This document shows positions 10,144 to 36,405 of a stretch of 51,544 nt of DNA, in pieces. The DNA comes from an uncultured Flavobacteriales bacterium (GTDB taxonomy: Bacteria; Bacteroidota; Bacteroidia; Flavobacteriales_D; Crocinitomicaceae), in NCBI GenBank assembly GCA_913056215.1, contig CAJXMN010000009.1, forward strand, positions 1-51,544, read 5' to 3'. Position 1 is the stretch's first letter. Every line of letters starts with the position of its first letter. Made by a program: the position numbers and the translations under genes. The notes below the pieces were generated by a model. It did no database searches. It was not told the DNA's origin and was given only the letters and a program-made list of their open reading frames with translations.

Positions 10144-10161
10144 TGAGTGAGTATTCACATA
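10144..10161. promoter_or_regulatory. Candidate TetR operator
   Basis: The sequence TGAGTGA, then GTAT, then TCACATA, contains the imperfect dyad GTGAgtatTCAC (10147-10158). It resembles the TGAnTGA...TCAnTCA operators of many TetR regulators. It lies directly after the -7 box, at the transcription start. Binding is inferred. Confidence 0.45.
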
Positions 10162-10164
10162 CAT

Positions 10165-10749
10165 ATGGAAAATAGAACAGAAAGACAATTAGAGATCATT
10201 GAGACTGCGGGTAAGATACTCACGGAGGATGGTGTTCAAGGCTTGACAACTAAAAAACTGGCAAACAGGGTCGGGTTTTCAGAAAGCGCGATTTATAGAC
10301 ATTTTAAAAGTAAAGAAGACATTATTGTATCGCTTCTAACGCATTTATCGGAGTCTATGGATGAACGACTTTCAAATTTGGAGCTTTCAGAAGATGATCC
10401 TGAATCCAATTTTAATAATTTGTTTGCGAGTCAGATGAAATTCTTTTCTGAACATCCTCATTATGTGGTTGCAGTGTTCAGTGATGGTCTACTACAGGAA
10501 AGTGATCGAGTCAATGAAGCAATCGAAAGCATTATGCAGACAAAGATGAAACATTTGATGCCGATAATTACCAGTGGTAAACAAAAGCAAGTGTTTACAA
10601 GTTCAATATCAACCCAAGACCTGATGAGTATTGTGATGGGTACTTTCCGTTTACAGATGTATAAGTGGAGACTCTCGGGATTTGAATACGACATTGTCTT
10701 ACGAGGTAACAATACGATACAATCATTATTAAAATTGATAAAACAATAA
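10165..10749 (+). CDS. TetR family transcriptional regulator
   Basis: 194 residues from the ATG at 10165. The N-terminal helix-turn-helix is typical (GVQGLTTKKLANRVGFSESAIYRHF, shown in DNA at about 10230-10300), followed by KSKEDIIVSLL. The C-terminal ligand-binding helices have no recognised specificity. It leads an operon of lipoprotein, TolC, adaptor, RND pump and DUF2141 genes, so it most likely represses them until an efflux substrate binds. A GTG start 18 nt upstream would sit inside the promoter's start region and was rejected. Confidence 0.88.
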   Translation: MENRTERQLEIIETAGKILTEDGVQGLTTKKLANRVGFSESAIYRHFKSKEDIIVSLLTHLSESMDERLSNLELSEDDPESNFNNLFASQMKFFSEHPHYVVAVFSDGLLQESDRVNEAIESIMQTKMKHLMPIITSGKQKQVFTSSISTQDLMSIVMGTFRLQMYKWRLSGFEYDIVLRGNNTIQSLLKLIKQ

Positions 10750-10752
10750 GCT

Positions 10753-11220
10753 ATGAATAGATCATATATATTAATTGGAATTATTACAGTTGCCGTTTTA
10801 ATGAGCTGTAAAAATGAAACTGATCAGCGTCAGGAGGAAAATCATTCGGATCAACATGTAGAACAGGAGGTCGATAAAAAATCAAATAAAAGTGAAGCAG
10901 AGTTGATTTCACTGAACGAAGGAGAGAAATGGAAAGTGAATGAAGAAATGATTCCTCATATTCAAAAGAGTGAGCGCGTTTTTAATGAATTCGAAGGAAA
11001 TGATTATTCGCAACTTTCTGAAGACATGATGAAGCACACGAATAAACTGATCCAGAGTTGTACGATGGATGGTAAATCACACGATGAACTGCATAAATGG
11101 CTTCACCCACATATTGAATTAATAAAAAAACTTGGTTCAGTGGAAGATGATGATAAGGCTGAAAAGCTCTTAAAAGAGGTCGAGGCTTCTTTTGAAGTAT
11201 ATCACAAATATTTTAAATGA
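10753..11220 (+). CDS. Small lipoprotein of the efflux operon
   Basis: 155 residues with a lipoprotein signal (VAVLMSC, lipidation Cys at about residue 19). A charged Glu/Lys/Asp-rich linker follows, and then a helical domain. That domain contains SCTMDGKSHDELHKWLHPH, rich in His, Cys and Met and therefore a possible metal- or heme-binding site. I cannot name the family. The gene lies 3 nt after tetR and 45 nt before tolC. It may be an accessory periplasmic protein of the pump; a metal-related function is only suggested by the residues. Confidence 0.75.
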   Translation: MNRSYILIGIITVAVLMSCKNETDQRQEENHSDQHVEQEVDKKSNKSEAELISLNEGEKWKVNEEMIPHIQKSERVFNEFEGNDYSQLSEDMMKHTNKLIQSCTMDGKSHDELHKWLHPHIELIKKLGSVEDDDKAEKLLKEVEASFEVYHKYFK

Positions 11221-11265
11221 TTTAGATACTAATACCTGCGTTTTGACTAGAATGTAGGCTATTGT

Positions 11266-12609
11266 ATGAAAAAAATTTACCCTATGAAGTTAGTAAGTAT
11301 TCACAAACGTATGTTAGGTTTTTTAGTATTACTCTTCTTTGCAAATACAGGATTCTCTCAAGATATCTGGACGTTGCAGGAGTGTTTAGACTCTGCTCGA
11401 CAGCACAATAAACAGTTGTTGATCAGTGAACGCAACATTGACGCAGCTGCAAAAAATGTCTCAGCCTCTAAGGCGCGGCTTATTCCGAAATTAAGCATCA
11501 ATGCAGAATACAAGTACTTCACTGATCTTCCTTATCAGTTAATGCCCATGAGCGTTTTTGGTGGACCAGAAGGTCAGTTTAAGGAAGCTCAGTTTGGTGT
11601 ACCTCATAACATTTCTGGTAATCTTTTTTTAAGCGTACCCCTTTACAATGCAAAAATATATGGAGGAATAGAGGCGGCTGAGAAAGGTGTGGAACTGCGT
11701 CAACTTGTTCATGAAAAAACCTTGGAAGAAGTTTTATACGAAGTATCTGTCGTTTACTATAATGCTCAGATCATTGTGAATAGGCTAAACATGATCGATT
11801 CTAACATTGTAAATGTAGAGCGGGTGTTAAGAAATACAGAGGCGTTAGGAACCCACGAATTAGTGATGCAATCCGATATATCTAAAGTAAAGCTAAAGCT
11901 CAATCAACTAAAAACGCAAAAGGATCAAGTTACAAGTCAGTATCAACAGGTCACGAATAGCCTCAAGTTTATGATGGGAATTGAATTAGATCGCAAAATC
12001 AACATTACCAATGAAATTCAGAATAAATCAACAACATCCAACATCGAAAAACAAACACTTGATGTGAGTATAGCACAGACTAAGGCTTCAATAGCTGAGA
12101 CAGAACTAAAACTAGTAAAAGGTTCTCGCTTGCCTTCAGTTTCACTTTTTGGGAGTTACGGGACCACTGGGTTTGGATACGATCAGGAACCAAATCGGTT
12201 TTTGAACTTTTATCCTCTTGGATTCGGAGGAGTGAAACTTACTTATCCATTATTCAATGGGACAGTTACACAAAGAATTATTGATCAAAAATCTATCGCT
12301 GTCGAAAACGCAAGAACATCTTTAGCGCTTGAACAGGATCGGTCGGATTTGGAACTTATAAATGCTCAGTTAAGATGGAGTAATGCCAAAAAGAATATGA
12401 GTTTGACAAATGAACAAATGCTGTTTGCAAAAGAGATACTTGGACAAACATTAGAGGAGTATAAAAACGAATTGGCAGGTCTTACAGAAGTTTTATTAGC
12501 AGAAAATGAGCTTCAGCAAGCTCAGCAAAACTATTTGACATCGATAGTCGAGTTTTTAAAAGCTGATCTCGCCTTAAGAAAACATAGTGGAAACTTTGAA
12601 TTGAATTAA
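11266..12609 (+). CDS. TolC family outer membrane efflux protein
   Basis: 447 residues: a signal peptide (LGFLVLLFFANTGFSQ), then two outer membrane efflux repeats. Typical starts are WTLQECLDSARQHNKQL and the second-half SRLPSVSLFGSYG followed by LTYPLFNGTVTQRI. It forms the trimeric outer membrane channel of the tripartite pump with the adaptor (2 nt downstream) and the RND transporter. Confidence 0.92.
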   Translation: MKKIYPMKLVSIHKRMLGFLVLLFFANTGFSQDIWTLQECLDSARQHNKQLLISERNIDAAAKNVSASKARLIPKLSINAEYKYFTDLPYQLMPMSVFGGPEGQFKEAQFGVPHNISGNLFLSVPLYNAKIYGGIEAAEKGVELRQLVHEKTLEEVLYEVSVVYYNAQIIVNRLNMIDSNIVNVERVLRNTEALGTHELVMQSDISKVKLKLNQLKTQKDQVTSQYQQVTNSLKFMMGIELDRKINITNEIQNKSTTSNIEKQTLDVSIAQTKASIAETELKLVKGSRLPSVSLFGSYGTTGFGYDQEPNRFLNFYPLGFGGVKLTYPLFNGTVTQRIIDQKSIAVENARTSLALEQDRSDLELINAQLRWSNAKKNMSLTNEQMLFAKEILGQTLEEYKNELAGLTEVLLAENELQQAQQNYLTSIVEFLKADLALRKHSGNFELN

Positions 12610-12611
12610 TT

Positions 12612-13676
12612 ATGAAACAGGTAAAAATGAAAAAGTTGATTGGCTTTTTAGCCTTGGCAGGTTTAATAATTGTTACGGTAGTCACCTTAATGAATAATAA
12701 GAAAGTAGCTGCTGATAAGATTTACAATTATGATAAATCTGACACTTTAAATGTGGTTACTCAAACGTTAAAAGAGAGCACTACTATTCGTAAAAAGGAT
12801 TTCTCTGGAATATTTCGTCCTAACAAAGAGGTCCGATTGAGTGCTGAAGCCAAGGGAGAAATTACCAAAGTAATGGTAGAGAATGGTGAATTTGTTAAAA
12901 AGGGGGAAGCTTTGCTAGAAATAGACCATTCATTATTAACGCTTAACGTTAAATCGATTGATACTAAACTAAAAGGCATTGAAAATGACATCAAACGTTA
13001 TCGGTCTCTTGTAGAGTCTTCTTCTATTCAAGGTATAAAACTTGAAAAGGCACTTCTTGCTCGTGATGCCGCGGAAATAGAGAAAGCTACAATTAACGAA
13101 CAGATTGATAAATCTATTGTACGCGCACCTTTTAATGGAGTGGTAACGGGTAAACTTACAGAAGAAGGAGCGTTTGCAGCACCAGGTGTTCCCCTTTTTC
13201 AATTATCGGATATCTCGAGATTAAAGTTTACCATTTTAACGTCTGAAAATTCAGTAAGTAGATTCCATATCAATGATCAGGTTAAGTTGACCGTAGATGC
13301 ATTTCCCGACACCACATTTTTAGGTAAAATCACCATGATTGGAAGTAAAACTAATAAGGCAAATCGCTTTCCAGTTGAAATTCAAATCAATAATGCTGCT
13401 CAACAAATAAAAGCCGGAATGTATGGAAATGCGATTGTACAAGACGCTTTAACCGAAGAAAAAAACCTGATGATTCCGCTGTCAGCGGTGATTGGCGAAA
13501 CATCTGCTCCCAAAGTATATGTGGTTCGAAAGGGGAAAGCAATGCTTCAAGCAATCGAATTGGGTAGAATTCAAGAGAACCAAGTTGCTGTAATTGCAGG
13601 GTTGAATATTGGTGATGTACTTGTTGTTGAGGGAATCACGAAACTATTTGACGGAGCTAATGTAGCTACAAATTAA
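12612..13676 (+). CDS. RND efflux periplasmic adaptor (membrane fusion protein)
   Basis: 354 residues with an N-terminal membrane anchor (LIGFLALAGLIIVTVV). The biotinyl-lipoyl-like domain halves are VRLSAEAKGEITKVMVENGEFVKKGEALLEID and, after the alpha-hairpin, IVRAPFNGVVTGKL (positions about 12830-12930 and 13110-13160 in DNA). Beta-barrel and membrane-proximal domains follow. The protein bridges the RND pump and the TolC channel. It is translationally close to both neighbours (2 nt and 12 nt gaps). Confidence 0.93.
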   Translation: MKQVKMKKLIGFLALAGLIIVTVVTLMNNKKVAADKIYNYDKSDTLNVVTQTLKESTTIRKKDFSGIFRPNKEVRLSAEAKGEITKVMVENGEFVKKGEALLEIDHSLLTLNVKSIDTKLKGIENDIKRYRSLVESSSIQGIKLEKALLARDAAEIEKATINEQIDKSIVRAPFNGVVTGKLTEEGAFAAPGVPLFQLSDISRLKFTILTSENSVSRFHINDQVKLTVDAFPDTTFLGKITMIGSKTNKANRFPVEIQINNAAQQIKAGMYGNAIVQDALTEEKNLMIPLSAVIGETSAPKVYVVRKGKAMLQAIELGRIQENQVAVIAGLNIGDVLVVEGITKLFDGANVATN

Positions 13677-13688
13677 AAACGTAGATCT

Positions 13689-16600
13689 ATGAACATTACT
13701 GAAATATCTATTAAGCGGCCGTCTCTGATCATCGTACTGTTCAGTGTTTTAACATTGTTAGGTATCATAGGGTACAAAAACCTGAACTATGAATTAATGC
13801 CTGATTTTAATCAACCTGTGGTTGTAATAAAAACGGGATATCCAGGAGCCGATCCATCTGAAGTTGAGACTTCCGTATCTCGGAAGATAGAAGATGCTTT
13901 ATCCAATTTAGAAGGTGTTGATTACCTGGTTACGAAATCTTTGCCAAATGCTTCTGTGATTATAGCCAATTTGAATTATGGAATTGATTTGAACAAAACC
14001 ATGCAAGATGCTCAGCGCTATATTGATAATATTAAAAAAGATTTACCCAGTGACGTGCTGAGTCCTGAAATGAGTAAAGTGTCTCCTAACGATCTTCCCA
14101 TTATGTCGGTAAGTGCCACAAGTGACTTAGAAGCCAAGCGGTTTTATCAAAAAATGAGTGATGATTATCTCCCTGCTATACAGCAAATCAAAGGAGTTGC
14201 AGAAATAACATTATTAGGAGGAAAAGAACGTGAGATCCAAGTAGATATAGATCAGGAAAAATTGCGACAACATGGAGTGGCAATCACTGATGTTGTAAGA
14301 GCAATTAATACATCTGGGATTGATATTCCCGCGGGTTCTATTGAAAACCGAAAGGATAAAAATGCGGTACGGATAGTAGGAAAATTTGAAAACCTGGAAG
14401 ATATTATGAATGTTCAGGTGGCTATGCCTATACCTGGAAGTCCTGTTTACGTTAACGACCTCGCAGATGTTGTCGATGGCACCAAAGATGCTACTTCAAT
14501 AAGTCGTTACAACGGTAAGAACGGAATAGGTTTACTCATTAAAAAGCAAGGAGATGCAAATGCCGTAGATGTCTCAGAAAATGTCAAAAAAGCCTTTGAT
14601 AGGATCGAGAACAGCGAAAGGGAAAATAATGTTGAATTCATAATCGCTGACGACAGTACAGACAATACAATTGCAGCTGTAAACGCTGTTGTATTTGACC
14701 TGATTCTGGCGGTTGTACTAGTTTCTTTGGTCATGCTCTTATTTCTAAGAAGCTTTAGAAACGCTATCATTGTTTTGATCGCTATACCAACCTCTTTGGT
14801 CACTGCTTTTGCGATGATGTGGATACTTGGTTATACGTTAAATCTCATGACATTATTGGCCATGTCACTGATCATCGGAATTCTTGTTGATGATGCAACA
14901 GTTGTACTCGAAAATATCCAGCGACATCTTGATATGGGTAAAGAAAAGCGTGCGGCATCCATGGAAGGACGAATGGAAATCGGTTTTTCGGCTGTATCAA
15001 TCACTCTAGTTGATGTTGTTGTCTTTTTACCGATACTATTTCTGCAAGTGTTTGTAGCTGATATGTTGAAACAATTTTCTGTCGTAGTGATCACTTCAAC
15101 ACTCACCAGTTTACTCGTTGGTTTTACATTAACACCATGGATTGCGTCCAGGATTGGTAAAAAGGAAGATTTGAAACCAACGAATTTTTTCAATAGTTTT
15201 TTGCTTTGGTTCGAAAAGCAACTTGATAAGTTCACCGATTGGTACGGGCGTATTCTTTCATGGGTTTTGAGTCATAAATTGATTTTTATGGGCATTGTTA
15301 TTGCTCTCTTTGTTCTTACGGGAGTAATGATGCGCCAAAATATCATTGGAAAAGAGTTGATCGCGACTGGAGATCAAGGGAAATTCAGCATACAATTAGA
15401 ATTCGATAAAACAACGGCACTCGCGTACAATGATTCTATTACTTATAAAGTTGAAGAATATATCCTGGGTCTGCCAGAGGTTGAGACTGTCTTTAGTAAT
15501 ATTGGTGGTCCAAGTACAGGTATTGGAAGTTTGGGTGTAGGTGAAGCATATCGTTCTGAATTGACGATTCAACTCAAGTCTAAAGAGGAACGAGATGGTA
15601 TATCTACTGAAGCATATATGCGGAAACTGAGAAGCACGCTGCGTAAAAACTATAAGGGTGTTAATTACTCTATTACAGCTCTTGGTCTTATACCTAGAAC
15701 GGCTCCAATCGAAATCACATTAAGTGGGAGTAATCAGAGAAAAGTTTTTGCGACTGGAAACAACTTGAAAGGAGTAATAGAATCTATGCCTGGTGCAGAT
15801 AATGTTCAACTATCAGTTCAAGAAGGTAGTCCTGAATTTAAAGTCATTCCAGATCAGGATAAAATGCAGCGTTTAGGACTCAACGCTGCTTATGTAGGAA
15901 TGCAATTGCGAACTGCGTTGACGGGAGATGACAATGCTGTAATAACACAACATGGAGTTGAATATCCAGTCAGGGTTTGGATGACTGATATCGACCGGCA
16001 AAACATTAGTGATATTCAGGATCTCACGTTGATTAATCCAAAAGGGATGCCGATCGAAGTTGATCAATTTGCAAAAGTAGTTCAATCAAAATCACCTTCA
16101 CTACTTGAACGGAAAGATCGTCAATCGGCTATAACATTAACCGCAAATGCACTTGGAAGACCATCGGGTTCCGTTGCAGATGATGTGGTGGCCTATTTAG
16201 CAGAACATCCATTACCACAAGGAATTGAAATGACCTGGGGAAGTGATATTAAACGTCAGCATGATAGCTTTGGAGCTCTCGGTTCTGTACTAGCTATATC
16301 ATTTTTATTGATCTACCTGATTATGGTCGCTTTATACGATGATTTCATTTATCCACTCGTCGTTTTGTTCTCTATTCCTGTTGCAATTATCGGAGCCTTT
16401 TTAGCGTTGAATCTTTCCATGAGTAATTTGAGTCTTTTTGCGCTACTCGGATTGATAATGCTGATGGGGCTTGTGACCAAAAATGCAATTTTAATTGTCG
16501 ATTTTACTAATCAATTAAAAGCAGAAGGTAAACATTTCAAAGAAGCATTAATTATTGCTGGTAAAGGACGTCTAAGACCTATACTAATGACGACGCTCTC

Positions 16601-16775
16601 CATGGTGTTTGGTATGTTGCCCATTGCACTCGCAACAGGTTCAGCTTCAGAGTGGAAGAATGGACTGGCATGGGTTATTATCGGAGGCTTGATGTCATCA
16701 CTGATACTAACAGTCTTTTTAGTACCTGTAGTGTATTACGCTGTTGATTCTTTAAAAGCAAAAATCAAATCTTAG
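13689..16775 (+). CDS. RND family efflux transporter permease (AcrB/HAE1 type)
   Basis: 1028 residues, the standard RND pump length, with two tandem halves. Each has an initial membrane helix, a large periplasmic porter domain and a six-helix bundle. Recognisable segments are SIKRPSLIIVLFSVL and GYPGADPSEVETSVSRKIEDAL. The TM4 acidic pair for proton relay is IIGILVDDATVVLENI, and the second-half signature includes MGLVTKNAILIVDF and GRLRPILMT. It exports drugs or other amphiphiles with proton motive force; the HAE1 form, not the heavy-metal form, is the better match. The TetR gene in the same operon likely senses a substrate. Confidence 0.94.
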   Translation: MNITEISIKRPSLIIVLFSVLTLLGIIGYKNLNYELMPDFNQPVVVIKTGYPGADPSEVETSVSRKIEDALSNLEGVDYLVTKSLPNASVIIANLNYGIDLNKTMQDAQRYIDNIKKDLPSDVLSPEMSKVSPNDLPIMSVSATSDLEAKRFYQKMSDDYLPAIQQIKGVAEITLLGGKEREIQVDIDQEKLRQHGVAITDVVRAINTSGIDIPAGSIENRKDKNAVRIVGKFENLEDIMNVQVAMPIPGSPVYVNDLADVVDGTKDATSISRYNGKNGIGLLIKKQGDANAVDVSENVKKAFDRIENSERENNVEFIIADDSTDNTIAAVNAVVFDLILAVVLVSLVMLLFLRSFRNAIIVLIAIPTSLVTAFAMMWILGYTLNLMTLLAMSLIIGILVDDATVVLENIQRHLDMGKEKRAASMEGRMEIGFSAVSITLVDVVVFLPILFLQVFVADMLKQFSVVVITSTLTSLLVGFTLTPWIASRIGKKEDLKPTNFFNSFLLWFEKQLDKFTDWYGRILSWVLSHKLIFMGIVIALFVLTGVMMRQNIIGKELIATGDQGKFSIQLEFDKTTALAYNDSITYKVEEYILGLPEVETVFSNIGGPSTGIGSLGVGEAYRSELTIQLKSKEERDGISTEAYMRKLRSTLRKNYKGVNYSITALGLIPRTAPIEITLSGSNQRKVFATGNNLKGVIESMPGADNVQLSVQEGSPEFKVIPDQDKMQRLGLNAAYVGMQLRTALTGDDNAVITQHGVEYPVRVWMTDIDRQNISDIQDLTLINPKGMPIEVDQFAKVVQSKSPSLLERKDRQSAITLTANALGRPSGSVADDVVAYLAEHPLPQGIEMTWGSDIKRQHDSFGALGSVLAISFLLIYLIMVALYDDFIYPLVVLFSIPVAIIGAFLALNLSMSNLSLFALLGLIMLMGLVTKNAILIVDFTNQLKAEGKHFKEALIIAGKGRLRPILMTTLSMVFGMLPIALATGSASEWKNGLAWVIIGGLMSSLILTVFLVPVVYYAVDSLKAKIKS

Positions 16776-28951: not shown

Positions 28952-30394
28952 TCAGTTTATTATTTTTTTTAACTGTTCTTGAAGCATCGCGATAGCCTGA
29001 TCAATTGTAGCTTTATGCGTTCGGAATGATAAAATTGCTATTCGAATTACAAATTTTCCGTCTACACGTGTTGAGGAAAGAAATATGCGTCCATCCTGAT
29101 GACAATTTTTCAATAATTGCTGGTTGAAAGCGTCTTGTTTTTGTGCCCTTGGGTACCAAAAGTAACTCACAGAAAGGTCGGGACGAGGACCGAGCTGAAA
29201 ACCGAGATTCTTCAGCTGCTCACGGAAATAATGGGTCAACAAGATTTTTTCTTTCAAGGCAGCTTGAAAAGGAGCAATACCGTGTAGTTTTAAAGGCAGC
29301 CACATGCGAAGCGCTCTAAAATGTTTGGTTAATTCTGGTGAAACATCTGCTGGACTCACGGGAACATCTCCCGACGTGGCATCTTGCATGTAATTTGCCG
29401 TATAGTGATGTGATTTGAAAACAGCGTTACGATCTTTCACCAACACAGCTCCAATACCATAGGGTAAAAACAGCCCCTTATGTGGATCAATGACCAAAGA
29501 GTCAGCCTGTTCAATTCCACTAAATGCACCTTGGTATTCGGGAAGTAATTTAAAGAATCCACCATATGCGGCATCTACGTGAAACCACATGTCGTGTTTT
29601 TTGGCAATTGTAGCTAACTTTTTAAGGGGATCGATCGCACCCATATCTGTCGTGCCAGCGGAAGCAATTACTAAAAACGGATTTTTACCATTTCTTTCGT
29701 CATTTGTGATAAGTGACCTTAATTGAGGAAGATCCATCATTCCCCGATCATTCATATCAACAATTCGAATGATTACATTTTCCAGTCCGATGATGCGCAA
29801 GGCCTTATGAATACAATGATGCACTTGTTCGGTCATATAGAGTGCAGCTTCAGAAACAGGCCGCTCCATTACTCTTTTGGCGTCCCGGGCCGCAGTTAGC
29901 GCAATCAAATTAGCGATTGATCCACCAGAGGTGAGGTTCCCAATGCTGTTCTCGGGAAATTCGAAACATTCTTTCAACCAATTCAGGCAGGCTTCTTCTA
30001 TTTCCACAGCTCCAGGGGAAGCGTAATACATACCTGCGTATACATTGCTCACGGATGCCAGATAATCAGCTATTGCTGATGCGTAGAGTCCACCGCCTGG
30101 TATATACCCCAGATGACCCCCAGAAGCCGCATTAATTCCGTGTGGGAAAACATGGTTTGATACCGTATCTAAGATTTTTTGGATCGACATTTGTTCATCT
30201 GAAATTCGAAAAACAGCTTTGTCTGGACGCGAGGAGCGATAAGCTTTGGTGGTAGATAATTGATCTAAAAATTGATTGGCCACTTGCTCCATTTCACCGT
30301 TCATGTCTTGACGTTGTTCTGGGGTGATTTCTAATGCATTCGCTGATTCTTCAAGCGCTAGTATTTCTTTTACATCCGTTGGGTTTTGATTCAT
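28952..30394 (-). CDS. PLP-dependent group II decarboxylase (aromatic-L-amino-acid or glutamate type)
   Basis: 480 residues. The pyridoxal-binding segment is clear: the Asp-Ala motif (HVDAAYGGFF) and the Schiff-base Lys in SLVIDPHKGLFLPYG. The earlier segment NLTSGGSIANLIALTAARD is the cofactor-phosphate region. The group decarboxylates aromatic amino acids, glutamate, aspartate or diaminobutyrate; the substrate cannot be read. It starts 2 nt after the anti-sigma factor gene, so it is in the sigma-factor operon, which is unusual for such an enzyme. Confidence 0.88.
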   Translation of the reverse strand: MNQNPTDVKEILALEESANALEITPEQRQDMNGEMEQVANQFLDQLSTTKAYRSSRPDKAVFRISDEQMSIQKILDTVSNHVFPHGINAASGGHLGYIPGGGLYASAIADYLASVSNVYAGMYYASPGAVEIEEACLNWLKECFEFPENSIGNLTSGGSIANLIALTAARDAKRVMERPVSEAALYMTEQVHHCIHKALRIIGLENVIIRIVDMNDRGMMDLPQLRSLITNDERNGKNPFLVIASAGTTDMGAIDPLKKLATIAKKHDMWFHVDAAYGGFFKLLPEYQGAFSGIEQADSLVIDPHKGLFLPYGIGAVLVKDRNAVFKSHHYTANYMQDATSGDVPVSPADVSPELTKHFRALRMWLPLKLHGIAPFQAALKEKILLTHYFREQLKNLGFQLGPRPDLSVSYFWYPRAQKQDAFNQQLLKNCHQDGRIFLSSTRVDGKFVIRIAILSFRTHKATIDQAIAMLQEQLKKIIN

Positions 30395-30396
30395 TG

Positions 30397-31245
30397 TTAC
30401 ACATTTCCTACTACATACATCTGATCAAGATTAGGAGCTGGTCGCCCACCCTCATCTTCTAGCGTAATAGCGAATGCTGCAGCCGATTTCGTCTTTTTCG
30501 ATACCTCAATGAAAGCCGTTTTCTGTTTTTTGGGCAGTACACCCATATTTTTGGGTTTACCGTCAATGATCGCCCACAGTTGGTATTGTTTTTTAGCTGG
30601 TGCGCTGGGCAATTGGTCGACTTGAAGGACAACGCGGCTATTGACTTTATTCCAGAAAACATTCACCAACGAAGTGTTACTCAGATCAGTCCCCTTAAGT
30701 ACCACTCTCCGCGTATTCGTATCAGAAAGGAATTGGAGTAACTCATTTTTCTTTTGAAGCTGCGCTGAATAATCTGTTGAAACAACCTGGATTTTTTGAC
30801 GCTTCGACTGGATATCACTTTTGAGTTCAGCGACTCTTTCTTCCAGAACCTTGTTATCACTTCTCGTATTTATAAACACTACTGTTGCAATTAAGAAGAG
30901 CGCAAAAAACGCTGCAGCCATTAATTTCCAGGTATTCTTTTGATCTTTATTATTAGAAGCTGGTTTTTTTTCAGCTGTAAAGTCGTGTTCGATGATCTCA
31001 TCTTTTTGATCCTGATCGATCTTTTCGTAAACCTTAGAAAGTACTTTTTCCTTGAGTCCTTCGGGAGGAGTGACAGCATTTTGGTCCGCTACTTTTTCCA
31101 AAGAAATTTGAAAGTCTTGTAGGGCTTCATCAATAGCTGGATAGATAGAGGACAAACACTCAACCTCTTGTTTTTCTTGAGGAGAAACTTGACCGAGGAC
31201 GTAGGCCTCTAAAATACCTGATGCTATGTATTCTTTTAAATCCAA
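30397..31245 (-). CDS. Anti-sigma factor, RskA-like
   Basis: 282 residues. The N-terminal cytosolic helices (YIASGILEAYVLGQVSPQEKQEVE) are the RskA-type sigma-binding region, without a zinc Cys motif. There is one membrane helix (about 107-124: LMAAAFFALFLIATVVF). The periplasmic part has a coiled coil and a C-terminal beta-rich RskA domain (KKQYQLWAIIDGKPKNMGVL). It should hold the ECF sigma inactive at the membrane until a signal cleaves or rearranges it. It overlaps the sigma gene by 10 nt. Confidence 0.88.
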   Translation of the reverse strand: MDLKEYIASGILEAYVLGQVSPQEKQEVECLSSIYPAIDEALQDFQISLEKVADQNAVTPPEGLKEKVLSKVYEKIDQDQKDEIIEHDFTAEKKPASNNKDQKNTWKLMAAAFFALFLIATVVFINTRSDNKVLEERVAELKSDIQSKRQKIQVVSTDYSAQLQKKNELLQFLSDTNTRRVVLKGTDLSNTSLVNVFWNKVNSRVVLQVDQLPSAPAKKQYQLWAIIDGKPKNMGVLPKKQKTAFIEVSKKTKSAAAFAITLEDEGGRPAPNLDQMYVVGNV

Positions 31246-31796
31246 AATATAAAGTTTGTCATCATTTTTCTCAGTTTTTTCAATCCATTTCTCGCTCGGG
31301 TTTTTACCGTACCGAGCGGGATTCCCAGTTCATCGGAAATTTCTTTCTGTGTGTAACCACCGAAGTATAAATATTCGATGATTAGCTTATGGTCTTCATC
31401 CAACTTACCAACTGTTTCTTTTAAACCAAGATGATCAACATTCATGGAAGTTTTGTGAAGATTACTTGTATTTACGAATGTTTCGAATGATTGGATTTGC
31501 ACTTTCCCTTCCCGCTTTATTTTTCGTACTTTATCGATAGCCGTATTTCTCGCGATGTTCAACATCCACGTATAAAGCCTTCCTTTAGATGAATCAAAAG
31601 CGTGAATTTTTTTCCAGATTTTAACGAATGTTTCTTGCATTGCGTCTATGGCCTCATCTTCTTTTCGTACTATGCGGAAGATTACACCGTAGAGTGCACT
31701 GGAATAATTGTCGTAGAGCTTTTCAAAGGCAGCGTGTTTTCCTTTCCTGAGCTCATCAACAAGGCGTTGATATTCTATTTCTTCTTTTTCTAACAA
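31236..31796 (-). CDS. ECF sigma factor (TTG start)
   Basis: 186 residues. Region 2 is present (FEKLYDNYSSALYGVIFRIV, EAIDAMQETFVKIWK) and region 4 has an HTH (YTQKEISDELGIPLGTVKTRARNGLKKL). The start is a TTG at 31796: no ATG lies in frame before conserved region 2, and a stop is found shortly upstream. It directs RNA polymerase to specific promoters and is controlled by the adjacent anti-sigma. Confidence 0.88.
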   Translation of the reverse strand: MLEKEEIEYQRLVDELRKGKHAAFEKLYDNYSSALYGVIFRIVRKEDEAIDAMQETFVKIWKKIHAFDSSKGRLYTWMLNIARNTAIDKVRKIKREGKVQIQSFETFVNTSNLHKTSMNVDHLGLKETVGKLDEDHKLIIEYLYFGGYTQKEISDELGIPLGTVKTRARNGLKKLRKMMTNFIFWI

Positions 31797-31916
31797 AATT
31801 CTGAACTAAAATAGATAAAATACCTTAGAGGAAGGCTACTTTTCTCAACAAGTACCTCCAATTGACTCTATTACTTCCACTCTATTGAATTCGCAAAATG
31901 TATTCGCTGGTTTTTA

Positions 31917-32387
31917 TTAAGACAGCAGTTTCTGCCTTAACATAAATTCAAGTTGATCATTAGCTTCCGAAAGACGCTCTGTAATTTCCTGATTTTCCCG
32001 GTGCAATTGATATACTTCGTAGGACTTTTCTATGATCTCTTTTAATTTTTCGTTGTCCCATGGTTTAGCGATATACTTAAAAATATGCCCTTTATTGACA
32101 GCGTCCACGAGTGCTTCCATGTCGGTATAACCGGTCACTAAAATCCGAATTGTATGCGGAAAATCTTCAATTATCGATGACAAAAACTCAACGCCAGTTT
32201 TTTCAGGCATGCGTTGATCAGTGAGGAGCACATGAATTTCGTTGTTTTTCATGATATCAAAACCGTTGTCCGCGCTTTCCGCTAAAAAAATATTGAAATC
32301 TCTTCGAAATGCCGCCTTGAAAGTAGTAAGGTTACTCTTTTCGTCGTCAATATACAACACGTTTATTTGCTTATTTTTTTGTGCCAT
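31917..32387 (-). CDS. Stand-alone receiver-domain response regulator with coiled-coil tail
   Basis: 156 residues from the ATG at 32387; longer in-frame starts reach 32486 but add no receiver sequence. The receiver is of the RpfG-like type: VLYIDDEKSNL, phospho-acceptor Asp57 in LLTDQRMPEKTG, VTGYTD (Thr) and YIAKPWDN (Lys). After it come only about 30 residues of predicted coiled coil (YQLHRENQEITERLSEAND), with no DNA-binding or enzyme output. It is divergent, by 75 bp, from the E1-GNAT-kinase operon and probably accepts phosphate from that kinase. Confidence 0.88.
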   Translation of the reverse strand: MAQKNKQINVLYIDDEKSNLTTFKAAFRRDFNIFLAESADNGFDIMKNNEIHVLLTDQRMPEKTGVEFLSSIIEDFPHTIRILVTGYTDMEALVDAVNKGHIFKYIAKPWDNEKLKEIIEKSYEVYQLHRENQEITERLSEANDQLEFMLRQKLLS

Positions 32388-32462
32388 AGTCCAAAACCTG
32401 ACCTTTTTTATATTAAAAAATATTTCCATAAATTTAAGAAAAATCAAAGTCCTATCTAAGTT

Positions 32463-33551
32463 ATGGAGGAAAAAAGAATTCAGCATCCCATTGTTTTCCG
32501 GATGAATATCACCCCTGAAAGAGAACGATTGAAGGAATTAATTCAGTCTCAATCTTCACTGGTTCAGTTAAATATGATTGAAAGTCAGATTGCGGATTGG
32601 GTCAAATTAAATTACCCAAAAGAATACAGTGAAAATAGAGATATCACTAAGTTTATTCAAGGGTTTAAACGAGACTATCCGATGGAAACTTACGGTTGTT
32701 GGGTTTACTATCCCTGGAAGAATACAGTCGTACGCACACTTTCAGCAAAACATTTCGCCGATGTGCGCACAGCGAGGAATAAACACAAAATTACGGCTGA
32801 GGACCAGGAAGAACTCTCGCAAAAGTGTATTGGTGTTGTAGGACTATCAGTAGGTAATTCTATTGCGCAAACGCTGGCTTTAGAGCGACTGTTTGGAACA
32901 TTGCGTATTGCTGATTTTGATGATTTAGAATTGACCAACATGAACCGAATATTTTCAGGTATTGATCAGCTGGGAATGCCAAAGACAACGATAGTTAGCC
33001 GTGCGATTGCTGAGCTCGATCCTTTTTTAACGGTTAAACCTTATAATGAGGGGATAAACACCGATAATATCGCTTCATTTTTTGAAGATGAACAGCAAAA
33101 TCAATTGGATGTGATCATTGACGAATGTGATAGTATCGCGGTAAAGATTGCGTTGCGAGAAGAAGCTAGAAAAAGAAGGATACCGCTCATCATGCAAACC
33201 AGCGATAGAGGATTAATAGACATAGAACGTTACGATCTCAATCCTCAAGCACCTCTGTTTCACGGGTTATTAACTACTCACGAAATTGATATGATCAAAG
33301 AGGGAACCGAAGGAAAAGCGTTGATCGCCGCAGTTCAAAAGATCATTGATCCGAGAACGATGTCCAGAGGTCTCAAAAATTCACTCTCTGAAATTGGAAA
33401 AACGATTACTACCTGGCCACAACTCGGTTCGGATGTTACTTTCGGAGGAGCAGTTACTGCCCAAATAACACGAGATATCCTATTGGGTAAAAGTGAAATC
33501 TCTGGACGTCACTTTTTAGAAATCGATATGTCTAAATATGACCGACTTTAA
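32463..33551 (+). CDS. E1/ThiF family adenylyltransferase, Rv1355c-like
   Basis: 362 residues. An N-terminal extension (1 to about 120) ends with RTARNKHKITAEDQEELSQ. The Rossmann ATP-binding domain follows: IGVVGLSVGNSIAQTLALE, then the acidic-Arg motif RIADFDDLELTNMNR, then the turn with DECDS (Cys222) as a possible thiol. No zinc CxxC pairs are present. This type (GLSVG, ADFDxLELxNxNR) resembles Rv1355c-like E1 proteins, which adenylate a carboxylate. The target is unknown. Its stop overlaps the GNAT gene by 14 nt. Confidence 0.82.
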   Translation: MEEKRIQHPIVFRMNITPERERLKELIQSQSSLVQLNMIESQIADWVKLNYPKEYSENRDITKFIQGFKRDYPMETYGCWVYYPWKNTVVRTLSAKHFADVRTARNKHKITAEDQEELSQKCIGVVGLSVGNSIAQTLALERLFGTLRIADFDDLELTNMNRIFSGIDQLGMPKTTIVSRAIAELDPFLTVKPYNEGINTDNIASFFEDEQQNQLDVIIDECDSIAVKIALREEARKRRIPLIMQTSDRGLIDIERYDLNPQAPLFHGLLTTHEIDMIKEGTEGKALIAAVQKIIDPRTMSRGLKNSLSEIGKTITTWPQLGSDVTFGGAVTAQITRDILLGKSEISGRHFLEIDMSKYDRL

Positions 33552-34239
33552 AGTCGAAATATATAGAGCTGCTGATCATCCTGAGCGCAATGCGGTCTTT
33601 ATTCGAGGCCATTCTAGTGTACTCAAAGATTATGGAGTAACGATGATTACTTCCTTCAAGGAGCAAAAGTGGGTGCATCAACCTTCTGTCTATTGCCTTG
33701 TGGCTTCTACACCTTCTGGAGAAATGATTGGCGGCATCCGAATTCATATTGCTGATTTTATTACGCCTTTGCCACTAGAAACTGCACTCCATAAAATGGA
33801 TACAGGGATTCATGATCTCGTTAAAAGTTACGCGGGCGAAGGCGTTGGTGAACTCTGTGGGTTATGGAATGCCAAAAAAGTAGCAAGAGTAGGTATTAGT
33901 TTTGTTCTCACCCGTGCTGCTGTGGCCGTAATGCCTTATTTGCAGTTTCGTGTATTAATGGGTATTTGTGCGGAATATAGTTTAAATATGTTCAAAAATG
34001 TTGGGTTTGAAATTGATGTTTCCCTTGGTGATAATGGAGAGTTCCCTTATCCAACAACAGCTTATATCACTCGAGTTGTAGGGATTTTAAAGTCAAGTTC
34101 ACTTGCGACGGCTCATCCAGTTGATCGAAAAAAAATATTAGATTTGCGTAATTCCCCAGTCCAAGAAAGAATTGAACAGGGTAAGAAAGGTGAATTTACT
34201 GTAAATTACAATCTACGGGTATCGCCTAACGTGCCTTAG
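33538..34239 (+). CDS. GNAT-like / FeeM-type N-acyltransferase
   Basis: 233 residues with a GNAT-like core: YCLVASTPSGEMIGGIRIHI (beta hairpin), VGELCGLWNAKKVARVGIS, and VLMGICAEYSLNMFKNVGFEI. The order is that of LuxI/FeeM/PEP-CTERM-type acyltransferases, which transfer acyl groups from acyl-ACP or acyl-CoA to amines. The substrate is unknown. It overlaps the E1 gene, so the two proteins are probably made in equal amounts, and is followed after 18 nt by the sensor kinase. The fit to GNAT is moderate. Confidence 0.72.
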   Translation: MTDFKVEIYRAADHPERNAVFIRGHSSVLKDYGVTMITSFKEQKWVHQPSVYCLVASTPSGEMIGGIRIHIADFITPLPLETALHKMDTGIHDLVKSYAGEGVGELCGLWNAKKVARVGISFVLTRAAVAVMPYLQFRVLMGICAEYSLNMFKNVGFEIDVSLGDNGEFPYPTTAYITRVVGILKSSSLATAHPVDRKKILDLRNSPVQERIEQGKKGEFTVNYNLRVSPNVP

Positions 34240-34257
34240 AAAAGAAAGCAACGTAAT

Positions 34258-36375
34258 ATGAGTAATTACTTCATTTATCTTTTTATATTTTTTTCATTCA
34301 TTTGCCAGGCGCAAACTATCACCATCGAAAATGACGTTGATCGCAAATCGATTGGAAATGAAATTTCATTTTTTATCGATACTGAAAACGATTGGAAATA
34401 TTCGAGTGTTGTCGATTCAGCTGATTTCAAAGTCAGTCAAAATGAAGTTCCGAATTTTGGCATTTTTGAGGGTGCCGTATGGTTGAAAATTCGTGTTCAC
34501 AATAAGTTGGATAAGTCCTTGTTTCTCGAAGTTGGAAGCCCGATAATTGATAGTATCTTTTTCTATTCGTCCCAAACTGAAAAAGTTGTGGTTCAAGGTG
34601 ATGCTTTGCCTTTTCAAGAGCGGTTCCGGGATTTCAACCATTTTGTTTTTAAACTACCGGATGACCAGGATTCAGTACAGACGTTTTACTTAAAGATGAA
34701 TAGTTCTGGACAGCTTCAAGTACCTCTGTATCTCGGTTCATTATCGGCCATAGAACATGTTGATCATTTGATTAATAATGCTTTGTTTTTCTTTTTTGGT
34801 TTAATGGGTGTCATGATTCTGTATAATCTGCTGTTGTATTTTGTGGTACGCGATAGAAGCTATCTATTTTACGTATTGTATATAGCGATACTTATGATCA
34901 CACAGCTTATACCACAAGGTTTTGCTTATCAGTATTTTTGGCCAGAATCCCCTCAATTTGCTCAATACGCTATGTTGATATTCCCGATTGCTGTCGGTAT
35001 TAGCGGAATATTTTTCTTTAATAGTTTTCTTCAAACCTGGAAATATTTGCCTCGACTGCTCTACGTTTTTAGGACATTATTTCTTTTCTATGGTGCAGCC
35101 ACAGTAGTATTGATTTTTGGCGCACTACAAATAGCATATGCACTTGTTGATCTTACGGCTATGCTCGTATCATTTTCTATGCTTATAGGGGCGATACTCA
35201 TCTATCGAAAAGGAAATCGGGCTGCTTTATTTTTTCTGATCGCTTGGTCTATTTTTCTCACTGGAATTATTTTATGGGTATTAAAAGATGCCGGTATCGT
35301 TCCACATAACAATTTTACAAATTATCTGATGATTATAGGTGCTGGCTTAGAGACGATATTGCTCTCTATTGGTCTTGCTGATCGTATAAACACATTGAGA
35401 AAAGAAAAGGAAATCGCCCGAAAAAATGAAATTCAAGCACTCCAGGAAAATGAGGATATTATTTCAAGGCAAAATATCCTATTGGAGGAAAAAGTACAAG
35501 CGCGAACAGAAGAATTAGCCCAGGTAAATACTGAACTTCAATCTACGATGAATTCAATGATTGAAACGCAACAGAAATTAATAGAATCTGAAAAGATGGC
35601 TTCATTGGGACAATTAACTGCTGGTGTTGCACACGAAATTAATAACCCGATCAACTTCGTGACTGCGAATATAGCCCCTTTGCGTCAAGATATTGCGGAT
35701 ATTGTTGTGTTACTGGAAAAGTACAATACCTTATCGCCTGAGAATATAGAAGATAAACTGGAAGAAATCCGTCAATTCGAATCGGAGATTGAATTTTCGT
35801 ATCTTAAAAATGAGCTAGACAGCATCATTTCCAATATTAGTGAAGGTGCTCAGCGTACGAGCGAAATAGTGAAGGGGTTAAAACTATTTGCACGTGATCA
35901 TAAAGGAGAAAAATCATCCACAGCTATCAATGAAGGTATTGAATCGACGATAACCATACTTCAAAATAAATTAGATGGTATTGAGGTTATTCGAAATTAT
36001 GGTGCGCTTCCCACCGGCGAGTTCTATGGAGGAAAACTGAACCAGGTGTTCCTGAATTTACTGAGTAACTCGATTGATGCTATTCACGAGAGACACGAGG
36101 GAATAAAGGGAGGAGAAATAGAGATAACGACAGCTTATGATGAACAGGGAAATCGCATATTGATTACTTTTAAAGACAATGGAACAGGGATTTCGGAAGA
36201 AGTGCGTCAGAAGGTTTACGACCCCTTTTTTACTACAAAACCCGTTGGGAAAGGCACGGGGTTAGGTCTGTCAATTGTTTACCAAATCATTGATTTACAC
36301 CAGGGGGCAATATACTGCGAAAACAATGAAAATGGTGGCACTAAATTTACTATTCAGCTTCCGCTCGATCAATAA
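34258..36375 (+). CDS. 7TMR-DISM sensor histidine kinase
   Basis: 705 residues: a signal peptide, an extracytoplasmic DISMED2-type beta domain (about 25-165), and a seven-helix membrane region (about 180-375). A coiled coil (about 380-445) connects to an atypical HisKA with His459 in GVAHEINNPINF. The HATPase has the N box NLLSNSIDAI, G1 DNGTGI and G2 GKGTGLGLSIVYQI. 7TMR-DISM proteins sense small ligands, often sugars or other metabolites. This one lies with an E1-like enzyme, an acyltransferase and a divergent receiver protein, and is probably the sensor for them. Confidence 0.93.
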   Translation: MSNYFIYLFIFFSFICQAQTITIENDVDRKSIGNEISFFIDTENDWKYSSVVDSADFKVSQNEVPNFGIFEGAVWLKIRVHNKLDKSLFLEVGSPIIDSIFFYSSQTEKVVVQGDALPFQERFRDFNHFVFKLPDDQDSVQTFYLKMNSSGQLQVPLYLGSLSAIEHVDHLINNALFFFFGLMGVMILYNLLLYFVVRDRSYLFYVLYIAILMITQLIPQGFAYQYFWPESPQFAQYAMLIFPIAVGISGIFFFNSFLQTWKYLPRLLYVFRTLFLFYGAATVVLIFGALQIAYALVDLTAMLVSFSMLIGAILIYRKGNRAALFFLIAWSIFLTGIILWVLKDAGIVPHNNFTNYLMIIGAGLETILLSIGLADRINTLRKEKEIARKNEIQALQENEDIISRQNILLEEKVQARTEELAQVNTELQSTMNSMIETQQKLIESEKMASLGQLTAGVAHEINNPINFVTANIAPLRQDIADIVVLLEKYNTLSPENIEDKLEEIRQFESEIEFSYLKNELDSIISNISEGAQRTSEIVKGLKLFARDHKGEKSSTAINEGIESTITILQNKLDGIEVIRNYGALPTGEFYGGKLNQVFLNLLSNSIDAIHERHEGIKGGEIEITTAYDEQGNRILITFKDNGTGISEEVRQKVYDPFFTTKPVGKGTGLGLSIVYQIIDLHQGAIYCENNENGGTKFTIQLPLDQ

Positions 36376-36405
36376 TTGCCATGTAATAAAAAAAGCAATT
36401 TAGTT
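36374..36405. terminator. Weak bidirectional terminator between kinase and cysS genes
   Basis: AATTGC / GCAATT (36374-36397) with a long A-rich loop and a T-run near 36402-36407. The stem is only 6 bp and overlaps the kinase stop and cysS stop regions. Confidence 0.35.

Follow-up and report, generated by a model that had tools for sequence, protein, structure and literature searches.

The cyclase TrzS and the acyltransferase TrzA convert L-tryptophan and acyl-CoA into N-acyl tryptazolones, with cyclisation occurring first, and the cyclised, non-oxidised intermediate accumulates under limited oxygen or when the oxidase is impaired (PMC12856293). Oxazolones are opened by acid and by methanol (PMC12856293). 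Similar products are made by TyzABC and, as cited there, by OxzAB (PMC10404671). Most nodes of the published ThiF subclusters adjoin genes for an oxidase, an acyltransferase or both, trzAS adjoins genes of cyclic di-GMP, and the physiological role of N-acyl oxazolones is called a major unresolved question (PMC12856293). Clusters for stieleriacines and N-acyl dehydrotyrosines likewise hold ThiF and nitroreductase genes together with that of an N-acyl amino acid synthase; there the oxidase gene is separate, and the text contains neither "histidine kinase" nor "two-component" (PMC12479983). Here we analysed a 51,544-nucleotide stretch of DNA from an uncultured Flavobacteriales bacterium (contig CAJXMN010000009.1, the whole stretch being called the window), in which genes for an E1-like ThiF cyclase (E1) and an acyltransferase precede that of a 7TMR-DISM sensor histidine kinase and diverge from that of a stand-alone receiver (Table 1).

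The locus resembles TrzAS, OxzAB and TyzACB in having adjacent genes for a FeeM/LuxI-fold acyltransferase and a ThiF cyclase of the same family, to which 61 of the 96 loci compared also add a fused oxidase, but the window itself has no oxidase. The Bacteroidota copies further differ in their tie to a 7TMR-DISM kinase and receivers; for the known clusters, the portions of the literature consulted make no mention of these. The enzyme pair is already known, and its tie to the kinase appears to be new: no published link between the two was found in the open-licence PMC literature, subscription papers being largely outside the search. Of the four-part set, for which the initial annotation knew of no description, the enzymes are already published (oxzAB, tyzACB, trzAS). 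From comparison of related loci, we consider it likely that the locus is a signal-synthesis-and-sensing operon whose product is sensed by its own kinase. We also lean, by a narrow margin, towards a phylum-wide family of small-molecule quorum-sensing systems in Bacteroidota, consisting of an acyltransferase, at least three unrelated finishing enzymes and a 7TMR-DISM receptor swapped as a pherotype cassette, in which oxazolones would be signals and the window an oxidase-less member making a saturated oxazolone.

A recurrent cassette of synthesis genes and kinase

Relatives were the best 80 of at least 554 loci confirmed in a contig profile scan, a sample that leans to the kin of the window. Cassette counts cover 79 of these 80 named loci and eight others wherever the flank was long enough; the window is omitted from them, as are L036, which comes from the genome of L020, and L028–L035, whose flanks are short. 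The acyltransferase gene adjoined the E1 gene in 80/82 loci, a 7TMR-DISM kinase was part of the cassette in 75/76, a protein combining receiver and kinase (receiver-kinase) followed the kinase in 73/75, and a small receiver was present somewhere in the examined locus in 61/70 relatives; the exceptions to the pattern include the sole Bacillota locus (L043). Since genomes carry only 2–3 DISMED2 proteins each (eight genomes searched), the presence of the kinase is beyond chance. The gene after the receiver-kinase belonged to one linked group of small receivers in 36/76 loci, and one of the 12 rows of this group that were inspected lay on the opposite strand. E1 (E ≤ 2e-85) and the acyltransferase were found in the same nine of 59 genomes, including that of the window, and were adjacent in all nine; a further E1 match, in G050, was a weak generic ThiF (6e-14). 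Across the phylum the distribution was patchy, with E1 in 10 and the acyltransferase in 13 of 395 genomes; among the three extra acyltransferase genomes, one had its E1 cut by the contig start and two carried another enzyme. The cassette occurs in 3/10 genomes of the genus of the window, and its kinase in 54/72 Algoriphagus-type genomes (49/50 of the good ones) and 65/93 Sphingobacterium-type genomes. A tree was built from 41 of the 78 cassette kinases and ten further DISMED2 proteins from eight genomes, and in it the cassette kinases formed one clade (99*) with one intruder. This intruder, the G053 kinase (L141 6053–8397), is followed by a small receiver, and no E1 or acyltransferase match was found among the open reading frames (ORFs) of the 16-kb stretch, which makes it a candidate orphan receptor related to the cassette kinases.

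The acyltransferase gave no Pfam or NCBIfam match at E ≤ 0.1, and sequence searches against the PDB returned nothing usable. Its AlphaFold2 model (predicted local distance difference test score, pLDDT, 93.2) was most similar to FeeM (Z 17.7, root-mean-square deviation (rmsd) 2.5, 175 aligned), followed by general GNATs (Z 16.4), LasI (Z 16.2) and BjaI (Z 15.0), and Foldseek ranked BjaI and FeeM at the top. The model points to a FeeM/LuxI fold and to an N-acyl amino acid synthase-like protein, its activity being predicted. Among 34 related acyltransferases one matched the FeeM family (E 0.047), while the LuxI acyl-homoserine lactone synthase family of Pfam matched neither these nor the window protein at E ≤ 0.1. 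The fold is thus shared with LuxI-type synthases such as LasI and BjaI, which differ from it in Pfam family and in that the ring would here come from a separate ThiF enzyme. The initial annotation had proposed a pathway to a small acylated molecule, coupled to the kinase, and this proposal, which comparative data support, withstood both of the challenges it had named, as the neighbourhood recurs across Bacteroidota, far beyond one genome, and the GNAT protein has a predicted FeeM/LuxI-like structure, not an unrelated fold.

The window E1 matched NCBIfam NF005901 (Rv1355c family) at 4.1e-120 and 402 bits over profile positions 7–336 of 722 only, below the whole-protein cut-off of 476 bits, so that the match is to the ThiF half alone. 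The ThiF domains of Rv1355c-family proteins from Rhodococcus and Mycolicibacterium scored 336 and 323 bits, respectively, against the E1 profile, ThiF/Rv1355c-family proteins on 13 actinobacterial plasmids shared 37–45% identity with the window E1, and the gene adjoining the Rhodococcus protein showed a weak match (25 bits) to the acyltransferase profile. On a Streptomyces plasmid (L121 5914–7712) a short E1 of 388 amino acids (aa) overlaps a GNAT-family gene by 4 nt without an adjacent kinase; this GNAT is of another family, outside the cassette profile. The tested ATP-site residues (G127 to K228) were invariant in 35/35 short (oxidase-less) and 61/61 long (oxidase-fused) forms. Asp223 of the window was invariant in 96/96 and aligned with an Asp of TcdA; it may correspond to Asp217 of TrzS, the catalytic Asp for ATP. 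Because the ThiF half is of the Rv1355c/TrzS family, the expected substrate is an N-acyl amino acid rather than a protein of the carrier or ubiquitin-like kind, which corrects the initial annotation, where the kind of substrate had been left open and a carrier allowed for. A true E1 conjugating a small protein or peptide, as in ubiquitin-like or CBASS Cap2 systems, is extremely improbable. The fold family is E1-like, and PADLOC E1-E2 models gave weak matches (best 1.3e-12), but these cover the ThiF part only, the partner is an acyltransferase, and a Pfam scan of the seven proteins of 28955–36372 (the four genes of the locus and three upstream) showed no E2, JAB or ubiquitin-like domain, in line with the earlier observation that the locus lacks a ubiquitin-like gene. 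This interpretation was rejected on family and absent partners.

No flavin oxidase, fused or adjacent, is present in the window locus. A genome-wide search with the oxidase half of L021 was positive in 8/8 long-form genomes and 0/9 short-form genomes, including that of the window; as generic nitroreductases exist in the genomes (three in that of the window, present in 16/17 overall), the search rules out homologues of that half only. No replacement oxidase stood out near the short forms among the 22 largest neighbour families, assessed by eye from first residues. The expected product would be a cyclised but not desaturated N-acyl amino acid. Short forms are frequent (35/96 loci), the long form being found in 60 Bacteroidota loci and one of Bacillota, and changes between the two on the E1 tree (96 of 97 E1 rows) number most simply 10, with at least 5 forced. 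On the same tree the window and L020, of the same genus, fall within a clade of 12 short forms (95*), and on the kinase tree they join L021 (long) and L097 (short) with support of 97*, both of which are placed elsewhere on the E1 tree. This disagreement between quick trees suggests that E1 was exchanged in the window's own lineage.

The receiver-kinase gene, present in nearly all relatives (73/75), is absent from the window locus, where cysS lies 24 bp downstream of the kinase. This could be taken to mean that the window copy is a decaying remnant with oxidase and receiver-kinase lost and signalling dead, which we judge improbable: all four reading frames are intact, the ATP-site residues are retained, the short form is common and has repeatedly changed on the E1 tree, and a receiver-PAS-kinase elsewhere in the genome might stand in for the missing gene. 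The latter is a receiver-PAS-HisKA_3-HATPase protein at a contig end (L142 4903–6213, contig C67), with 30% identity to the receiver-kinase of L020. It is unlikely to be a moved cassette gene, in view of this identity and of its receiver, which matches the cassette receiver far less well.

Co-segregation of receptor halves and synthesis genes

The first 185 residues of the kinase form a predicted sensor part (pLDDT 92.6) that is similar to RetS (3jyb; Z 16.4, rmsd 2.2, 134 aligned), and this part is the least conserved, with a mean pairwise identity of 20% vs 53% for the kinase part. Sensor and seven-transmembrane (7TM) domain together appear to be an exchangeable receptor half, exchange itself having been observed in relatives. 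In Algoriphagus-type loci (51 of 53, L198 and L183 being cut by contig ends), three acyltransferase types paired with three 7TM types (25/19/7) with zero mismatches, and all seven short E1s belonged to one type. Type changes numbered 12 on the kinase plus receiver-kinase tree vs 2 on the sensor plus 7TM tree, and identities correlated between acyltransferase and 7TM with rho 0.83 vs 0.14 between 7TM and kinase, which are parts of the same protein. Restricted to the 44 long loci, the partial correlation of 7TM and acyltransferase, given kinase and E1, was 0.80 (p 0.001), and that of the oxidase end, which lies directly upstream of the acyltransferase, was 0.07 (p 0.028). Of 90 pairs with kinase identity ≥0.80, which are not independent of one another, 40 were alike in both acyltransferase and 7TM, 44 were unlike in both, and 6 were discordant.

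Individual pairs located the exchange. A. marincola L086 and A. formosus L090 share 88–99% identity across the cassette (200-bp DNA windows) except for one block of 49–56% that extends from the acyltransferase into the kinase gene, near the end of the 7TM region. For near relatives of different type (seven pairs), the stretch of low identity ended at kinase residues 347–381; it started near the acyltransferase start in 5/7, two of these five having other upstream divergent stretches, and at E1 in two pairs involving the short type. A control pair, L039/L042, showed no divergent block, its lowest window within the cassette (0.79) being in the sensor. In that pair the sensor is 82% identical although the acyltransferases are the same (100%) and the kinase halves nearly so (99%), which points to a periplasmic domain that diverges quickly while the enzyme type stays constant. 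A 7TMR-DISM kinase from outside the cassette, in the Algoriphagus-type genus, gave no decoupled pair, with a 7TM-kinase rho of 0.79 over 16 homologues.

The second genus-level set was of Sphingobacterium type (60 of 66 places, with 59 in the receptor-type test, as L279 is cut, and 27 in the E1-type comparison). Here the order is acyltransferase, tailoring enzyme, kinase and receiver-kinase, and the tailoring slot of the 60 loci holds a short E1 in 28, a gene of 254–273 aa in 31 and a cut gene in one. The 31 genes align as one family, and the three that were domain-scanned are S-adenosylmethionine (SAM) methyltransferases. Receptor type matched the tailoring enzyme, cyclase or methyltransferase, in 59/59 loci, with 7 changes on the kinase tree, of which at least 6 are forced, 5 on the acyltransferase tree and 1 on the receptor tree. 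This was most evident for L294 and L266, which share 98% identity in the acyltransferase and 99% in the kinase half, yet have different tailoring enzymes and only 32% identity in the 7TM; across kinase residues 360–430 their DNA identity rises from about 0.56 to 0.96. Over the 27 E1-type loci, acyltransferase, E1 and 7TM were correlated with each other at rho 0.91–0.94 and with the kinase half at 0.44–0.49. In another family, represented by G439 and G182, an isoprenylcysteine carboxyl methyltransferase (ICMT)-family enzyme occupies the slot between acyltransferase and kinase (Table 1). Three unrelated enzymes thus share one slot, two of which (ThiF, ICMT) act by family name on carboxylates, and the slot enzymes may cap the N-acyl amino acid.

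Two other accounts of this co-variation were considered. In the first, a recombination hot spot swaps a contiguous block under selection on one member, such as the periplasmic domain, and the enzyme is carried along. Such hitchhiking is unlikely, though it has to be taken seriously, since the blocks are contiguous and the co-segregating gene adjoins the kinase in both genera. It is at odds with the zero mismatches in the 51- and 59-locus sets, with the finding that the co-segregating gene differs between the genera yet is a pathway gene in both, and with the long loci, in which the neighbouring oxidase end hardly tracks the acyltransferase (0.07) whereas the 7TM, beyond the sensor, does (0.80). 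In the second, the kinase senses something else, such as a glycan or envelope stress, and only controls production of an oxazolone or N-acyl amino acid that serves in defence, as a membrane lipid or against oxidative stress. The RetS-like sensor, which diverges faster than the other parts compared, would fit this, as would the sensor difference in L039/L042 despite an identical acyltransferase, and the published authors, who call the role of oxazolones unresolved, mention stress (PMC12856293). This account is nonetheless rather doubtful, as a receptor type that follows the acyltransferase (51/51) or the tailoring enzyme (59/59) over repeated exchanges would be unexpected if the stimulus were another.

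Several results weigh against a product sensed by its own kinase. Synthesis gene and receptor half co-vary, with a conserved kinase half, in the 51 and 59 loci described, but short forms at large show no such effect: the partial correlation of 7TM and acyltransferase was −0.09 in short loci (n=24), the form to which the window belongs. It was 0.26 in other long loci (n=37, p 0.0015), falling to 0.12 (p 0.07) given the oxidase end, and 0.07 in loci with the acyltransferase first (n=9). For the 38 closest pairs, conditioning on everything left sensor-acyltransferase at 0.35 (p 0.012) and kinase-acyltransferase also at 0.35 (p 0.008), an ambiguous outcome; a clear signal emerged among close relatives. 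Binning identity by oxidase status over all loci revealed no clear receptor effect, and oxidase status was dropped as an explanation of receptor divergence. In 6/23 close pairs from the 27 Sphingobacterium-type loci the acyltransferases were ≥65% alike but the 7TM domains <60%. As the exchanged block is contiguous DNA, too dissimilar inside to recombine, linkage alone could hold enzyme and receptor together. The rho of the control kinase fell to 0.41 over the nine closest homologues, and only 4 of its pairs reached 0.80. No acyltransferase-profile match was found beside the ThiF genes of Mycolicibacterium (L122) and Streptomyces (L121) or in L043 and L066; an exporter is not a fixed cassette part; a generic nitroreductase may carry out the oxidation in trans; and, with the receiver-kinase missing, the output line of the window may be reduced.

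Proposed pathway and comparison with known signalling systems

According to the self-sensing scheme, the acyltransferase would, judging by fold and family, N-acylate an amino acid, drawing the acyl group from a thioester. By analogy with the biochemistry of TrzS, TyzB and OxzB, the ThiF enzyme would then adenylate the carboxylate of the N-acyl amino acid and close the ring, giving an N-acyl oxazolone that should be saturated because the usual oxidase domain is missing. The molecule would exit the cell and bind to the kinase at its sensor and/or 7TM half, as the co-segregation of receptor and enzyme in relatives suggests. Single receivers would accept phosphate from the kinase, and so would the receiver-kinase in most relatives; in the window the divergent receiver would be the only recipient left at the locus. 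In related loci, ThiF with an oxidase, a SAM methyltransferase or a carboxyl methyltransferase of the ICMT family would instead perform the step after acylation, and the common aim may be capping of the carboxylate to yield a neutral, diffusible ligand.

The product is probably the ligand of the kinase, since the co-variation resembles ComQXP pherotypes and the layout PhcBSRQ; for the window itself, this would follow by homology. In ComQXPA of Bacillus, too, a conserved kinase half is combined with variable genes for making the signal and a variable 5′ half of the kinase gene (PMC6334282, PMC4008528), but the signal there is a prenylated peptide, whereas a small-molecule acyltransferase/cyclase pathway is predicted here and the specificity groups are deduced from sequence. 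PhcBSRQ likewise unites synthase, sensor kinase, receiver plus kinase and single receiver in one operon, whose receivers PhcR and PhcQ are described as lacking a DNA-binding site (PMC8578825); 31/60 Sphingobacterium-type loci share with it the inclusion of a methyltransferase. The cassette differs from PhcBSRQ in its acyltransferase and 7TMR-DISM receptor, and the window has no receiver-kinase; the likeness drawn here is one of layout. Of the ligand regulation proposed in the initial annotation, the coupling of a ligand to the kinase was retained, but the comparative data suggest the pathway's own product as that ligand. The proposed output through a protein without a DNA-binding domain is consistent with the nearby receivers, which mostly lack one (exception L021, LuxR-type).

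If this scheme is correct, the role of N-acyl oxazolones would be that of an intercellular signal, which is directly testable because the synthase is genetically bound to a dedicated receptor kinase whose receptor half appears, from its evolution, to follow the enzyme. Bacteroidota would gain a small-molecule communication system of a recognisable, quorum-sensing-like type, and a ligand class would be suggested for some 7TMR-DISM receptors. Natural swap partners, such as those of A. marincola and A. formosus, are available for work on ligand specificity.

Gene layout and flanking regions

The four genes, their coordinates and three spacings (75 bp between receiver and E1, a 14-nt overlap of E1 and acyltransferase, an 18-nt gap before the kinase) agreed with the initial annotation, and the domains were recovered by Pfam except for the acyltransferase, which was recognised by fold only (Table 1). 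Pfam matches of the kinase were 7TMR-DISMED2 (1.4e-24), 7TMR-DISM_7TM (2.5e-47) and HATPase_c (3.8e-25). The region equivalent to the exchange boundary (kinase residues ~347–426) was mapped by transfer of position from relatives, in which the exchanges were observed, and is putative for the window's own lineage. The likely phosphoacceptor of the receiver is Asp90 (numbering of the 189-aa ORF), retained in 80/82 aligned receivers, and the protein is like PhcQ in architecture only.

Table 1. Features of the window locus, its flanks and two slot genes of related loci.
Feature	Positions	Strand	Remarks
Stand-alone receiver	31917-32387	-	156 aa from internal ATG (MAQ...); Response_reg 3.8e-18 (Pfam); divergent from operon
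Divergent intergenic region, 75 bp	32388-32462		Promoters presumably here
E1/ThiF-like cyclase, short (oxidase-less) form	32463-33551	+	362 aa; ThiF 7.4e-21 (Pfam)
Acyltransferase, N-acyl amino acid synthase-like (predicted)	33538-34239	+	233 aa; position of OxzA/TyzA/TrzA
7TMR-DISM sensor histidine kinase	34258-36375	+	705 aa
Periplasmic 7TMR-DISMED2 sensor domain, RetS-like jelly roll	34354-34737	+	Fastest-diverging cassette part
Seven-transmembrane domain	34783-35385	+	Pfam; kinase residues 176-376
Putative equivalent of relatives' exchange boundary	35296-35536	+	Kinase residues about 347-426
Kinase-cysS junction, 24 bp	36376-36399		Receiver-kinase absent here
ECF sigma factor and RskA-type anti-sigma pair	30397-31245 and 31236-31796	-	Adjoins receiver gene
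Pyridoxal phosphate (PLP) decarboxylase	28952-30394		Flank gene
ICMT-family slot gene, L326	2765-3400		
ICMT-family slot gene, L327	4206-4844		

The flanks of the window locus (sigma factor, anti-sigma factor, PLP decarboxylase and cysS) are shared with L020, where a receiver-kinase gene and a small receiver occupy the equivalent junction before cysS. As the same genes flank both cassettes, the insertion site is common to two genomes of the genus. In L022 (10912–11403) and L023 (8058–8543), a protein of 161–163 aa without a Pfam receiver domain is encoded at the position of the divergent receiver. An ABC ATPase-like family (by eye) is found within 11 kb upstream in 13/96 loci, as in L037 (5179–5808), and might be linked to export of the product. 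Elsewhere in the window, a TetR regulator, an outer-membrane efflux protein and an RND (AcrB-family) pump are encoded in one apparent operon (10147–16775, + strand).

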